IMG/VR virus record: IMGVR_UViG_3300023276_000338
Span: 1-26,629 of that record
Reading direction: 5' to 3' (one strand)
Source: a virus
DNA length: 26,629 nucleotides
The notes under the pieces were generated by a model. That model ran no database searches. It was not told where the DNA came from and was given only the letters and a program-made list of their open reading frames with translations. This document shows, one piece after another, positions 161 to 11,387 of this stretch. Each line of letters opens with the position of its first letter. Positions within the stretch are counted from its first letter, which is position 1. The translations under genes were made by a program, and so were the position numbers.

Positions 161-850
161 ATGAAATACTTAAAAGATATAAAGGACTGGAAAGAAATGA
201 AAAATCAAGTTATTTGTGCTGATTGCCTTGATGGTATGAAGCTGATACCTGACAAGAGTATTGATTTGATACTTACTGACCCTCCTTATGGGATAGGAGC
301 GTCGAAAGGTTCATTTATGAGACAAGGAAAACAAACAGGGAAAAGCAAGTGCGTCTCTGGCCTTAACTATACCGCCTCTGACTGGGATAATGAACCACCT
401 AACAAAGAAGCCTTTAATGAAATTTTTAGGATTAGTGAGAATCAGGTAGTTTTCGGAGGAAACTATTTTGTAGAATACTTGTACAATAGCCCCTGCTGGA
501 TAGTTTGGGACAAGAATAACGGAAACAATAGATATGCCGACTGTGAACTTGCGTGGACGTCTTTTAAGACAGCAGTTAGAAAGTTTAAACATACTTGGCA
601 TGGAATGATTCAAGAAAACATGAAACATAAGGATATGCGAGTTCACCCCACTCAAAAACCAGTAGAGCTTATGCGCTGGATACTAGAAAACTACTCAAAA
701 GAAGGCGATTTAATCTGTGACCCTTTTATGGGAAGCTGGACAATGGCAAGAGCTTGTAAAGATTTAGGTAGAGACTTTATAGGCTTTGAGCTAGACGAGA
801 ACTACTGCAAGATAGGAGAAAAGAGATTGCAACAAGAAGTATTATTTTAA
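161..850 (+). CDS. DNA methyltransferase, adenine-N6 or cytosine-N4 type
   Basis: S-adenosylmethionine-dependent DNA methyltransferase of the N6-adenine/N4-cytosine class. The catalytic motif IV is TDPPYG (D40 to Y43). The cofactor motif I follows near the C-terminus (D187-P-F-M-G-S-W-T), then a GRDFIGFELDENY segment, so the order is the beta type with motif IV first. At 229 residues it is compact, with a short recognition region between the motifs. The usual FxGxG cofactor loop reads F-M-G-S-W, with tryptophan at the last glycine. The true start may be ATG 197 (MKNQVICADCLDGMKL), where family members commonly begin; neither start has an SD sequence. No restriction endonuclease lies beside it, so it is probably an orphan phage enzyme that modifies phage DNA, for example to evade host restriction. 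The class is secure; the target base and site cannot be read. Confidence 0.88.
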   Translation: MKYLKDIKDWKEMKNQVICADCLDGMKLIPDKSIDLILTDPPYGIGASKGSFMRQGKQTGKSKCVSGLNYTASDWDNEPPNKEAFNEIFRISENQVVFGGNYFVEYLYNSPCWIVWDKNNGNNRYADCELAWTSFKTAVRKFKHTWHGMIQENMKHKDMRVHPTQKPVELMRWILENYSKEGDLICDPFMGSWTMARACKDLGRDFIGFELDENYCKIGEKRLQQEVLF

Positions 851-870
851 AATTATAGATACCTTCCTCT

Positions 871-1096
871 AGTGGAGGTGGCGGAATAGGTAGACGCTAT
901 ATTGACAGTAAGTCCCTGTGAAGTACAAGCAGGGCAGACTTATAAAGTTTCCCGTGACCTACTTTTCCAAGTCGGGACTCAAAGCAAAGCGAAGTAAGGC
1001 ATGCAGGGTGACTATACGAGTAACAAATTGGATGGACCGACATGGCACGCTAGGTCGGATTGAACAGTGCCTCTCGTCAAATCCCTGCCCTCCACT
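871..1096 (+). tRNA. Interrupted tRNA-Leu-like gene (anticodon not assignable)
   Basis: The 5' part matches the tRNA-Leu class: acceptor strand GTGGAGG (872-878), TG, then a D arm GCG-GAATAGGTAGA-CGC (881-897) of typical Leu form. The 3' part is TCAAATCCCTGC followed by CCTCCAC (1089-1095), which pairs perfectly with the acceptor strand. The complementary T-stem strand GCAGGG lies at 1003-1008, followed by T1009. Joining T1009 to T1077 would restore a canonical seven-base loop TTCAAAT. Thus 67 bases appear to interrupt the T loop, and 105 bases (898-1002) occupy the place of the anticodon and variable arms, where no standard anticodon stem is found. Local hairpins include TAAGTCCCTG (909-918) with CAGGG...ACTTA (930-942), TCCCG/CGGGA (950-977) and CCGAC/GTCGG (1037-1058). 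The outer helix extends to 12 bp (867-878 with 1089-1100). The T stem would have six pairs, one more than usual. CCA is not encoded. It may be an intron-bearing tRNA, a decayed tRNA or a tRNA mimic. Confidence 0.55.
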
Positions 1097-1129
1097 AGAG
1101 ACAAGTGTTTATAATCTAACCAACGTATT

Positions 1130-1306
1130 ATGAAAGCACTAGCATGGATCAACATGGTCATAGCCAGCCTAATGGCTCTCTACTGTATGGCAGGACTTCC
1201 TGATGCATACAACACAGAAGATAGGTTTGGTATTATGTTTGCAATAGTTGTATTCGTTATGTTTGCGGTGTATCCAGGAATAAATCTGTTTAAGAAGAAA
1301 AAGTAG
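1130..1306 (+). CDS. Small two-helix membrane protein
   Basis: A 58-residue protein starting at ATG 1130 and ending in TAG. It has a hydrophobic segment at about residues 4-22, a short polar turn (PDAYNTEDRFG), a second hydrophobic segment at about 35-53 and a basic KKKK tail. This N-in, C-in hairpin with a charged tail is the general look of class II holins and other small phage membrane proteins, but there is no lysin next to it and no family signature. An inner-membrane location is inferred from the helices alone. It lies directly behind the tRNA-like element; a TATAAT at 1110-1115 could serve as a -10 box, but no -35 is visible. Confidence 0.6.
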   Translation: MKALAWINMVIASLMALYCMAGLPDAYNTEDRFGIMFAIVVFVMFAVYPGINLFKKKK

Positions 1307-3284: not shown

Positions 3285-4565
3285 ATGTTGTTTTCAATAA
3301 CCACCGCCACGAAGAAAGTAATGGCAATGAAGGATAGGATCAGGGCGTGTCCTGGTGGTACTTCAGCTTCAAAGACTATCTCTATCTTGATGGTGCTTAT
3401 TCATTTGTGCCAGACTGACAAAGAGCCAACGCTAACGAGTGTAGTATCTGAATCTATTCCACATTTGAAACGTGGAGCTATTCGTGATTTCAAGAACATA
3501 ATGCAGGCTCAAGGATATTGGGAGGAGTCACGATGGAATGCTACTGACTCTATGTATACGTTCGAGACTGGAAGCAGGATGGAATTCTTTTCAGCAGATA
3601 GTGGAGACAAGTTGAGAGGAGCTAGGCGTGATAGGTTATTCATTAACGAGGCCAACAACTGTACCTTTGAAGCATTCGAGCAATTGGAGGTCAGAACAAA
3701 AGAGTTTATATTTATCGATTGGAATCCAACAAATGAGTTTTGGTACTACACAGATGTAAAACCGTCTCGTAACGACGTTGAGGAGTGTGTGCTTACGTAT
3801 CTAGACAATGAAGCGTTATCGGTTGAGATTGTAGATTCAATTGAACAGAGAAAGAATAGAAAGGGTTGGTGGCAAGTTTATGGACTTGGTCAACTTGGTG
3901 AGGTTGAAGGTAAGATTTACAAGGGATGGAAGATAATTGACGAGATATCAGATGAGGCTAGGCTTGTCAGAAGAGGAATGGATTTCGGATACAGTAACGA
4001 CCCTTCGTCTATTGTTGATATATATTTATACAACGGGAACTATATTATTGATGAGATAGCTTATCGAAAAGGATTAAGCAACAAACAATTGGCAGATATA
4101 TTGTTAGCAGACGAGACGCATACATTGGTTATCGCAGATTCAGCAGAGCCTAAATCAATTGATGAGTTGAGAGTCTATGGAGTTAATGCAGTTGGATCAA
4201 AGAAAGGAAGAGACTCTGTATCATATGGAATACAGTGTGTGCAAGAGAATCAAATCTTTATGACAAAGAGATCAGTCAATGTGATTAGAGAGTACAGGAA
4301 CTACCTATGGGAGACAGACAAGAACGGAAAGATATTAAACACTCCAGAGCATACGTTCTCACATTCGATGGATGCGATCAGATATGCTATAGCGAGTATG
4401 CACGCAAAGACCAAAGGATTAAACATCGAAGAATACAAAGAAGCAGCTTTAGAATACTCTGAAAACGACAGAGAACACCTTATTAGAACGAAGACCCCTG
4501 TGGCAGATGGATATGAACTTATGGACAAGTACGATGATGCCTCCGAAGCGTATTTAAAATCATGA
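3285..4565 (+). CDS. terL: Terminase large subunit (packaging ATPase and nuclease)
   Basis: DNA-packaging motor that pumps the genome into the prohead and cuts it. The ATPase half has a Walker A-type loop GGTSASKT (residues 24-31) and a Walker B strand RLFINEA (117-123), with E122 as the likely catalytic glutamate and asparagine at the usual aspartate. The nuclease half shows an RNase H-like set of acidic residues: D233 (RRGMDFGYSNDPSS), D285 (LVIADSAEP) and D363 (SHSMDAIRYA). The length of 426 residues is normal for PBSX-type/Terminase_3 proteins. It ends in TGA, just before a promoter for the portal gene. The start at ATG 3285 follows an A-rich stretch with no SD sequence and gives a Walker loop close to the N-terminus, as usual for this group. 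Confidence 0.93.
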   Translation: MLFSITTATKKVMAMKDRIRACPGGTSASKTISILMVLIHLCQTDKEPTLTSVVSESIPHLKRGAIRDFKNIMQAQGYWEESRWNATDSMYTFETGSRMEFFSADSGDKLRGARRDRLFINEANNCTFEAFEQLEVRTKEFIFIDWNPTNEFWYYTDVKPSRNDVEECVLTYLDNEALSVEIVDSIEQRKNRKGWWQVYGLGQLGEVEGKIYKGWKIIDEISDEARLVRRGMDFGYSNDPSSIVDIYLYNGNYIIDEIAYRKGLSNKQLADILLADETHTLVIADSAEPKSIDELRVYGVNAVGSKKGRDSVSYGIQCVQENQIFMTKRSVNVIREYRNYLWETDKNGKILNTPEHTFSHSMDAIRYAIASMHAKTKGLNIEEYKEAALEYSENDREHLIRTKTPVADGYELMDKYDDASEAYLKS

Positions 4566-6751: not shown

Positions 6752-6806
6752 TGCTAGAGTTCACAGCTCTCTAGCATTCATTATAGCCAAACGGCTATCG
6801 ATATTT
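6752..6806 (+). terminator. Double hairpin, possible weak terminator
   Basis: TGCTAGAG (6752-6759) pairs with CTCTAGCA (6769-6776), and ATAGCC (6783-6788) with GGCTAT (6793-6798) around an AAAC loop. The second is followed by CGATATTTTAT, a loose U-rich tract. They lie in the 83-base gap between the post-portal gene and the scaffold gene and may terminate or process the portal transcript partially. Confidence 0.45.
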
Positions 6807-6824
6807 TATAACTTGAACGTCTAT

Positions 6825-8879: not shown

Positions 8880-9170
8880 ATGCCTAAAAATCCTTTTTAC
8901 GCTGACAAAGTCGTTCTGAAAGACGGCGGAGTTATCGAAACATCTGATGGAACTGCGATCATCGAAGTAGATGAGAACGGTGTACCATCAATAAAAGCTG
9001 ATATTTCAGAGGCATTAGCATATGGATCTATCTATGTAGGAGATTCTGCTGGTGTAACATCCGAACTAGCTCTTGGGGCTAGTGGGTATATTTTAACCTC
9101 TAACGGGACTACCGCTGTGTGGGCCGCTGGAGGAGTTCCAACAGGAACAACAATCACTGCAACCAATGAT
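8880..9170 (+). repeat. Duplicated 97-codon N-terminal module, copy A
   Basis: Codons 1-97 pair with 10239-10529. I count 90 of 97 identical residues, but about 54 codons differ silently and only 36 codons are identical. One patch around codons 85-93 stays almost unchanged at DNA level. It is an old or recoded duplication rather than a recent copy. Confidence 0.85.
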
Positions 9171-10220
9171 ACTGCTACTGGAGCAGTGTTGAACATGGCT
9201 CATGACTCTGCTAGTCCTGCTGAAGGAGATCTAATTGGAATGATAGTTGGACAGGGTAACGACGATGGAGGAGATCCATTTACATACGCATCATTTGGTG
9301 CTGCTATTGGCGATCCTTCTGACGGTTCTGAAGAAGGTTCATTTGCAGTATTCTGTGCTAAAGGTGGTGTATTCAGCACTGCTGGGGATCCAGACTTCAT
9401 TGTTGGCCCAGGAACAATAGAAATTGCCTATACTGACGACGGAACTACAGGTGCGCAAATTAGAACTTACCATGTATCAACTACTCCTGCTATTGATGAC
9501 GCAGTTAGTCTCTTTGTAGCTTCGGGGTATAATGATGCCGCTGGAGAGCTAGAATATGGTACTGCTGGTTTTGTAATCCTTAACCCTGCACAGGGAGCAG
9601 AAGTTGCTGGATGGGGAATAAGCCTACAGAACGGAAGTGGTTCATTACAAACTACTCCACAGTTAAGCCTACTTGGTGCTACTGCTGGTCTTACTCTAAC
9701 AAGTGAGCAATCAGGAGCTGAAGGAGCTTCACTTGTTCTTTATCAAGATTCTGCTAGTCCTGCTGCAAACGATGCAATTGGAATGGTTAAGTTTCTAGGT
9801 GAAGACAATGCTAGTGGATTCAAAGAATACGCACAACTATGGGGACAGATTGATGACCCTACTGCAGGTGCTGAATTTGGTTCTATCTCATTTAAGATGA
9901 TGAACGGAACTGGAAGTTTAGCTACTGCTGCCAACATTTCACACGATGGTGCAAGAGCAGAGCTTGCGATTGGTGACGGTACTGCTGGCCCAGCGCTTCT
10001 TAAGAATGCTGGTACAGGCCCACTATTGCTAGACGCTGGAGACACAGGTGCAGGTATTGCACTTGAAGAAGGAGCTTCTGGTGACGTAGTTCTTCTACCT
10101 GGTGCTTCTGGTACAGTTAAATTCGGTACTCACTCTGCACTTGGCGGAGAGACTGTTTCTGGATTTATCACAATCACAGATGCAGGTGGAACATCAAGGA
10201 AGGTAGCTATCGTAACTTAA
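8880..10220 (+). CDS. Fibre-like virion protein with repeated modules (paralogue A)
   Basis: A 446-residue protein with an N-terminal ~97-residue region nearly identical to that of the next gene. Later come related ~60-residue modules beginning near residues 105, 200 and 285, each built as SxSPAxxD-x-IG...GxD...Y...I-DP-x-G-x-E-G, for example DSASPAEGDLIGMIVGQG and DSASPAANDAIGMVKFLG. Modules of this kind, rich in G, A, T and S, are frequent in marine and environmental phage fibres and decoration proteins. The C-terminus (about 375-446) is glycine- and valine-rich and ends with ITITDAGGTSRKVAIVT. No trimerisation or enzymatic motif is obvious. It follows the capsid terminator, and the shared N-terminal region may be a virion-anchoring part while the rest varies. 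Exact location on the particle is unknown. Confidence 0.7.
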   Translation: MPKNPFYADKVVLKDGGVIETSDGTAIIEVDENGVPSIKADISEALAYGSIYVGDSAGVTSELALGASGYILTSNGTTAVWAAGGVPTGTTITATNDTATGAVLNMAHDSASPAEGDLIGMIVGQGNDDGGDPFTYASFGAAIGDPSDGSEEGSFAVFCAKGGVFSTAGDPDFIVGPGTIEIAYTDDGTTGAQIRTYHVSTTPAIDDAVSLFVASGYNDAAGELEYGTAGFVILNPAQGAEVAGWGISLQNGSGSLQTTPQLSLLGATAGLTLTSEQSGAEGASLVLYQDSASPAANDAIGMVKFLGEDNASGFKEYAQLWGQIDDPTAGAEFGSISFKMMNGTGSLATAANISHDGARAELAIGDGTAGPALLKNAGTGPLLLDAGDTGAGIALEEGASGDVVLLPGASGTVKFGTHSALGGETVSGFITITDAGGTSRKVAIVT

Positions 10221-10238
10221 TAAATAACAACTTATAAT

Positions 10239-10529
10239 ATGCCTAAAAATCCATTTTATGCTGATAAGGTTGTCCTAAAAGACGGTGGAGTTATAGAAAC
10301 GTCTGACGGTACAGCTATTATCGAGGTGGACGAGAATGGTACGCCTTCTATTAAGGCCGACATTTCAGAAGCCCTAGCATACGGATCAATTTACATAGGT
10401 GACTCCGCTGGAGTTACTTCAGAGCTAGCCATAGGAGCTAGCGGATATGTTCTAACTTCTAACGGAACAACTGCTGCATGGGCAGAAGGTGGAGTTCCAA
10501 GTGGAACAACAATCACTGCCACCAACGAC
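10239..10529 (+). repeat. Duplicated 97-codon N-terminal module, copy B
   Basis: Second copy of the module at 8880-9170. The differing residues are 35 (V/T), 53 (V/I), 65 (L/I), 71 (I/V), 80 (V/A), 83 (A/E) and 88 (T/S), mostly conservative. Confidence 0.85.
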
Positions 10530-11387
10530 ACTTCTGCTGGTGCTATATTAAACTTTATGCACGATTCTGCCTCTCCTGCTGAAGGAGATGGGGTAGCAGC
10601 TATTACTGGAATCGGGAACGATGCTGGCGGAGATCCTCTTACTTACGGAGGCGCTATAATCGGGATAGATGACATAGGAGCTGGAACTGAAGCAGGGTTT
10701 TTTGGAATAGGCATTGCCCAAGATGGTGTGTTTGATTCTAGCAAGATTAACTTCGCAGTTTATGGAGGTGGAGGAGGATTCTCTGCTTATGATGAAGGTG
10801 TTGAAGGTGTTGAGATGGAATACCTACACGTTACTGCAAGCATTGCCGCTAATGACAAGTGTGCTTCGCTGCTATTTGGTATTGAAGATACTGTTGCTGA
10901 CGACATAATTGGCTTCGCTCACATGGATATAATCGCAAGTGATGTAACACAAGGAGCCGAAGAAGGAGAGCTACACTTCTATCTTATGAGTGGAGGTAAT
11001 AACACAAGCCCTACGTTCACTTTACAGGGAGACCATATTACGGTTCAAGATAACGTTGGAATGGCTTTTGCTAGTACAAATAGCATTACGGCTACGTCAG
11101 AAGGTGTTGCTGCTTCAGGTATTGATGTAGTTACATACATTACTACCAACGGTGATCAAGATGAAGACAACGTCACTCTTGCCAACGGTTCATACCAAGG
11201 ACAAATAAAACAGTTCATCGTGGTGGCAGTAGGAAACGCAAACGATTCAGTAAGCATTACACCAGCAACTATGCTTGGAGGAACAAAGATTACATTTGCA
11301 GCTAGTCCTCTAGGACTTGGTTGCCATATGTTATGGAATGGTTCGGCATGGGGAATTACTGGTAATAATGGCGGAACTGTCTCTTAA
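10239..11387 (+). CDS. Fibre-like virion protein (paralogue B)
   Basis: A 382-residue relative of the preceding protein. Residues 1-97 match it at 90 positions, including the start MPKNPFYADKVVLKDGG. It then carries two of the ~60-residue modules (DSASPAEGDGVAAITGIGND and the weaker TASIAANDKCASLLFGIED). The C-terminal ~110 residues differ completely: SEGVAASGIDVVTYITTNGD followed by DEDNVTLANGSYQGQIKQFI and a terminal MLWNGSAWGITGNNGGTVS. That strand-rich end with GQ(I/T)K...I...N...I resembles the caps found at the ends of phage fibres. The gap from the first gene is only 18 bases. Shared N-terminus with different C-terminus suggests two alternative or stacked fibres that use the same attachment site. 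Confidence 0.7.
   Translation: MPKNPFYADKVVLKDGGVIETSDGTAIIEVDENGTPSIKADISEALAYGSIYIGDSAGVTSELAIGASGYVLTSNGTTAAWAEGGVPSGTTITATNDTSAGAILNFMHDSASPAEGDGVAAITGIGNDAGGDPLTYGGAIIGIDDIGAGTEAGFFGIGIAQDGVFDSSKINFAVYGGGGGFSAYDEGVEGVEMEYLHVTASIAANDKCASLLFGIEDTVADDIIGFAHMDIIASDVTQGAEEGELHFYLMSGGNNTSPTFTLQGDHITVQDNVGMAFASTNSITATSEGVAASGIDVVTYITTNGDQDEDNVTLANGSYQGQIKQFIVVAVGNANDSVSITPATMLGGTKITFAASPLGLGCHMLWNGSAWGITGNNGGTVS

Follow-up and report, generated by a model that had tools for sequence, protein, structure and literature searches.

The described RNAs closest to the element reported here are bacterial tRNA-Leu, a class II tRNA, and RNAs that are tRNA-like in part: tmRNA, which combines tRNA-like ends lacking an anticodon arm with body pseudoknots; the bacterial Y RNA YrlA, in which a tRNA-like module sits on an extended stem; and mascRNA and menRNA, which are human nuclear RNAs cleaved by RNase P from long RNAs and without a hypervariable domain. 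The last two represent tRNA-like non-coding RNAs (PMC11693755), and the tRNA-like structures of plant RNA viruses are a case of viruses mimicking tRNA without forming a complete one (PMC5723415). Since tRNA mimicry is known as a principle, anything categorically new in what follows lies in the RNA class.

The window, that is, the whole 26.6-kb stretch of DNA analysed here, is a tailed-phage contig from a virus record, with genes for a terminase large subunit (3285-4565), a major head protein, and further virion proteins. The element at 867-1100 is intergenic, with a DNA methylase gene (161-850) on one side and a 58-aa ORF (1130-1306) on the other. Elsewhere in the window, two tandem paralogous genes (8880-10220 and 10239-11387) are nearly alike in their first ~70 residues (MPKNPFYADKVVLKDGGVIETSDGTAIIEVDENG...).

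The element and its relatives, which comprise the window's build with an interrupted T loop (type B) and a simpler one (type A), share with bacterial tRNA-Leu the 7-bp acceptor geometry (type A), U8-G9, a 3-bp D stem, GG in the D loop, and C56-A57-A58 in the T loop; the element has AAUAGG at the place of the AAUUGG of E. coli tRNA-Leu. Unlike tRNA-Leu, they have no anticodon arm, a T stem of 6 bp, and no encoded CCA, the T loop is interrupted in type B, and G55 replaces U55 in all 111 type A members listed. T-loop motifs outside tRNA often have G at position 55, and the G55 of type A fits a T loop without need of modification. With tmRNA, the element shares tRNA-like ends, the lack of an anticodon arm, and body pseudoknots (predicted in the element), but its D arm is of Leu type rather than Ala type, it has a real D stem, and the tmRNA model does not match it. 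As compared with YrlA, its stem has no conserved sequence, and the element is unmatched by Rfam; a hypervariable domain distinguishes it from mascRNA and menRNA; and the plant-virus structures belong to RNA genomes, whereas the element is internal, DNA-encoded, and found in tailed phages.

Anatomy of the window element

A sequence-only reading of the window had described a Leu-type acceptor and D arm at the 5' end, a perfect 12-bp outer helix, and a T arm at the 3' end of the element, with no standard anticodon stem between them. The acceptor, D arm, and outer helix are present (Table 1), and the absence of an anticodon stem is borne out in the window. As to the T arm, the two strands of its stem are not adjacent, the 5' strand lying 74 nt upstream of the 3' strand. 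The T stem stacks gap-free on the outer helix in the tRNA fashion, and the T loop is split into U54, GACUAUA, a 4-bp stem, a 52-nt insert, and then UCAAAU. The window has the type B hallmarks of a Leu-type D arm, a variable linker, a 6-bp T stem with a split T loop, and an outer helix in tRNA register. The fold exceeds chance: among shuffled versions of the element, 5 of 200 fold equally well (z -2.4). The pseudoknots of the T-loop insert are weakly supported statistically across the class and are given as predictions only.

Table 1 Features of the type B element in the window (positions are those of the window)
Feature	Position	Strand	Basis
Outer (extended acceptor) helix, 5' strand CTCTAGTGGAGG	867-878	+	12 perfect pairs with 1089-1100
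U8-G9 two-base linker, tRNA-like	879-880	+	sequence; register shared with most members
Leu-type D arm GCGGAATAGGTAGACGC, stem 881-883/895-897	881-897	+	(nearly) identical in most members
Hypervariable domain replacing anticodon and variable arms	898-999	+	no family-wide word or anticodon arm
Conserved CAU preceding T stem	1000-1002	+	type A: C 74%, A 93%, T 100%
T stem, 5' strand GCAGGG	1003-1008	+	6 bp with 1083-1088; 97.5-99.4% of cells paired family-wide
U54 equivalent of T loop	1009	+	by comparison with UGCAAAU, the type A T loop
Conserved GACUAUA strand, inserted after U54	1010-1016	+	ACTATA in 61/67 pattern matches, its six positions being left free in the search pattern
T-loop insert stem, 5' strand CGAG	1017-1020	+	covarying pairs with 1073-1076
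T-loop insert, predicted H-type pseudoknot (1037-1041/1054-1058 and 1044-1048/1067-1071)	1021-1072	+	z -1.8 for the window
T-loop insert stem, 3' strand CTCG	1073-1076	+	covariation with 1017-1020
T loop, second part [U/G]55 C56 A57 A58 A59 U60	1077-1082	+	TCAAAT in 73/93, GCAAAT in 20/93 members
T stem, 3' strand CCCTGC	1083-1088	+	covariation with 1003-1008
Outer helix, 3' strand CCTCCACTAGAG	1089-1100	+	pairs with 867-878

Searches for known RNA classes were negative throughout: ARAGORN (plain, with introns allowed, and in tmRNA mode) found nothing in the window, Rfam 15 at gathering thresholds gave no match in the window and 20 other loci, and an Rfam cmscan of window positions 800-1200 with E values up to 10 gave no group I, tRNA, or tmRNA match. 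In place of the 5-bp T stem and uninterrupted 7-nt T loop of tRNA-Leu, the window has a 6-bp stem and an interrupted loop. As to tmRNA, whose tRNA-like domain is of Ala type and comes with a tag ORF, no model matches the window, and its D arm is of Leu type.

Membership, types, and covariation of the family

The relatives number about 90 of the window's build (type B) and at least 111 of the simpler build (type A), nearly all from phage contigs, so that the family as seen here amounts to about 200 phage sequences, including SPP1 and phi3T. Both types have the tRNA-type outer stem, U8-G9, the Leu-type D arm (GGCGGAAUAGGUAGACGC), a YCAU, and the 6-bp T stem. The T loop of type A is an uninterrupted UGCAAAU, whereas in type B, position 54 of the loop is separated from position 55 by GACUAUA, a stem that covaries, and a variable insert that is often predicted to be pseudoknotted. 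Among 80 loci with related terminases, two have related elements, one with the split T loop (L035) and one with the plain UGCAAAU (L012). A split-T-loop pattern matched 51 IMG/VR contigs and 8 contigs in the GTDB genome collection (84,980 genomes scanned); looser patterns gave 93 distinct type B members, with the D arm recognisable in 90. The pattern running from the D arm to a plain T loop (type A) matched at least 120 viral contigs, 111 of them with checked pairing, and none of 795 genomes from two bacterial phyla, a sample outside which lie the Bacillota, whose phages are rich in type A. We regard the family as phage-linked because about 200 viral contigs stand against these 8 GTDB contigs for type B and none of the 795 genomes for type A. 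A covariance model of 37 other type B loci, built without the window, scored the window element at 63.2 bits (E=1.3e-17) and had no second match within the window.

Across a non-redundant set of 107 type A elements, chosen with no pairing filter, acceptor positions 1-7 are paired in 89-100%, as compared with 50% for shuffled partners (ten positions tested); all four Watson-Crick pairs occur at most positions, the last pair is nearly always G-C, and pairing drops off past 7 bp. Outer-stem pairing in 58 type B elements extends further, up to 20-27 bp, and the helix covaries in both sets. In the 37-member alignment, the T stem and the insert stem combined reach 99.5% pairing, and doubly changed cells number 31 versus 7.9 in shuffles. 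The insert stem occurs as CGAG/CTCG, CTAG/CTAG, CAGG/CCTG, CTCG/CGAG, and CTCT/AGAG. These covarying homologues strongly support the suggestion of the sequence-only reading that the element may be a tRNA mimic or a new structured RNA; neither homologues keeping a normal tRNA nor a coding pattern of substitution was seen.

The region between the D arm and the T stem has no conserved word across the family. It is closed, in the relatives, by a helix ending at YCAU (mean 6.0 bp versus 4.5 bp shuffled) and is just 21-32 nt long in several well-formed members. An anticodon arm with a 5-bp stem and a 7-nt loop follows the D arm in 3 of the 111 type A members and 4 of the 90 type B members, counts close to those from shuffles (2.7 and 1.8). 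With neither an anticodon arm nor an encoded CCA, the element is not a tRNA. Base 73 is A in 55% of members, only a preference. A pairing between D-loop AUAG and insert CUAU is unsupported, since AAAAG D loops coexist with unchanged ACTATA and single changes in ACTATA are mostly uncompensated. Antisense matches of the variable arms to their own phage contig equal those of shuffles, and thus no target was found.

The element at 867-1100 is real. Taken together, the covariation of the outer and T stems, the exact tRNA register, the model match on the window, and the lack of an Rfam match strongly support, with high confidence, that it belongs to one RNA family. That family is apparently undescribed so far; a search of the open-licence literature, with subscription papers and preprints outside its scope, brought up no account of such a phage RNA.

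Several members have features of their own. Two copies per phage occur at L126, L312, and L335, those of L312 lying head to tail, mere bases apart. The outer stem GTCACTG/CAGTGAC is common to L343/L346, L247, L256, L292, and L306, whose variable domains are unrelated, as if swapped. In L139, L012, and L282, T-arm-like hairpins (GGTTCAATTCC and similar), perhaps captured tRNA pieces, lie within the variable domain. A third variant, in Bacteroides phage BS-TP2 (L352:2003-2112), has a Leu-type D arm, an ordinary T loop TTCGAAT, a 5-bp T stem, and an outer stem of tRNA length, with crossing helices GAGTA/TACTC and GAGCTTT/AAAGCTC where an anticodon arm would be.

Carrier phages and cassette exchange

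Type A was found in the Bacillus phages phi3T, SPP1, and Goe3, the Enterococcus phages EFDG1 and VEsP-1, Latilactobacillus phage TMW 1.1365 P3, Lactiplantibacillus phage H1-Guo, Lacticaseibacillus phage R24.2, and Leuconostoc phage Ln-9, in each case unannotated or covered by a hypothetical ORF only; no type B was found in annotated phages by short-core BLAST. In SPP1, the element lies between gene 9 and gene 11. The word tRNA is absent from the revised SPP1 annotation, in which the terminator listed in Table 2 at 6780-6824 is the sequence directly 3' of the element (PMC6316719). This sequence, directly downstream (L347:3540-3590) and a terminator in PMC6316719, contains a second short tRNA-like hairpin set (ACGGAC...GGGTTCAATTCCC..GTCCGT).

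There is no constant neighbour gene across type A or type B. Type A often lies directly upstream of terminase genes and, in lactobacillus and enterococcus phages, after ArpU/DUF1492-type regulators, while type B is mostly in early/replication regions. Proximity to tRNA genes is enriched (type A, 19/111 versus 6.4 expected; type B, 6/90 versus 0.9 expected), and the elements beside tRNA genes are on the same strand in all 25 cases. A terminator follows 19 of 105 elements on the 3' side, as compared with 3 in control stretches. In Burkholderia phage FLC9 (L348:1595-1715), a degenerate Leu-like tRNA adjoins a tRNA-like gene that lacks annotation and has an insertion of ~40 nt in its anticodon loop (CCCCATTTAAG...AGGGG).

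EFDG1, a member of the Herelleviridae, and VEsP-1, a 39-kb phage of another kind, have elements that are 99% identical within unrelated flanks. Another element is common to SPP1 and SPO1-like phages of B. subtilis (about 83%), and a third to phi3T and Goe3-like phages (about 81%). Hence what is exchanged is the RNA as such, which moves as an exact cassette among unrelated phages of one host genus.

Proposed role and rival explanations

The family combines a conserved elbow and stem of tRNA type with hypervariable arms, lacks an anticodon arm, and is exchanged as a cassette within a host genus. Retention of the leucine-tRNA elbow and stem without the anticodon arm yields a tRNA look-alike that is unable to translate, and our tentative proposal is that it serves as a phage-encoded standalone structured RNA, a trans-acting mimic of the leucine-type tRNA elbow aimed at a host tRNA-binding factor. 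In this proposed mechanism, the element would be transcribed as a separate RNA that acts in trans in the course of infection. Its constant elbow would be bound by a host protein that recognises tRNA elbows, which could be a factor in translation or in RNA modification or processing, or else a defence protein that senses tRNA; sequestration or retargeting of the bound protein, in a host-specific manner, would fall to the variable arms. An action that is in trans and directed at the host is suggested by the near-identical elements with unlike flanks (EFDG1/VEsP-1) and by the sharing among B. subtilis phages, and the lack of a constant neighbour, the same-strand proximity to tRNA genes, and the terminators downstream of some members were also counted in its favour. 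Points against it are the chance-level complementarity of the hypervariable arms to their own phage and the weak class-wide support for the pseudoknots.

The main rival, although unlikely in our estimation, is a cis role in phage mRNA, in which a leader or intercistronic element would direct RNase P/RNase III processing, stabilise a polycistronic mRNA, or control termination before the packaging genes. The position of type A just upstream of terminase genes, often after ArpU/DUF1492-type regulators, would fit such a role too, as would the intergenic SPP1 copy and the terminators that follow some members. However, the neighbours vary widely, type B lies mostly in early/replication regions, the unit that moves is an isolated cassette, and the long outer helices of type B offer no ordinary tRNA-like RNase P site.

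Far less probable is an aminoacylatable, tmRNA-like RNA, which RNase P and CCA addition would convert to a leucylated RNA with a non-coding arm. The Leu-type D arm, the tapering of the type A outer stem after 7 bp, and the preference for A at base 73 are in line with this idea, but the 13-bp acceptor/T stack, the missing CCA, the variability of base 73, the long type B outer helices, and the negative results with the tmRNA model and ARAGORN are not. Even slighter is the chance of a Y-RNA-like partner of a Ro/Rsr protein on the bacterial YrlA principle: the layout is alike, with a tRNA-like module closed by a long stem, but the outer stem has no conserved motif, almost any pair being allowed, and Rfam gives no match.

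A tRNA-Leu split by an intron, whether of group I or of another kind, is the unusual-intron option of the sequence-only reading. It accounts for Leu-like ends far apart but is refuted by the homologues, with an anticodon arm not above chance in 201 members, linkers down to 21-32 nt, covarying helices within the supposed insert, and no intron-model match, and we give it practically no weight. Equally negligible is a decayed tRNA pseudogene, which would suit the frequent proximity to tRNA genes but is refuted by the strong compensatory change and the invariant motifs across unrelated phages.

Returning to the trans-acting elbow mimic, the family may, with confidence somewhat short of even, represent a large undescribed class of phage non-coding RNAs, anticodon-less elbow mimics whose hypervariable arms are host-specific and which pass as cassettes between unrelated phages; by means of them, a host machine that binds or senses tRNA, possibly an antiviral one, would be captured or misdirected. 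Type B is in itself an example of a T loop opened at 54/55 to accommodate another domain. Since SPP1, phi3T, Goe3, and EFDG1 carry the element unannotated, its role is directly testable in B. subtilis. If the proposal is true, these RNAs would constitute a new kind of viral tRNA mimicry, based on an internal, anticodon-less element of DNA phages, and a candidate host-takeover or counter-defence RNA.
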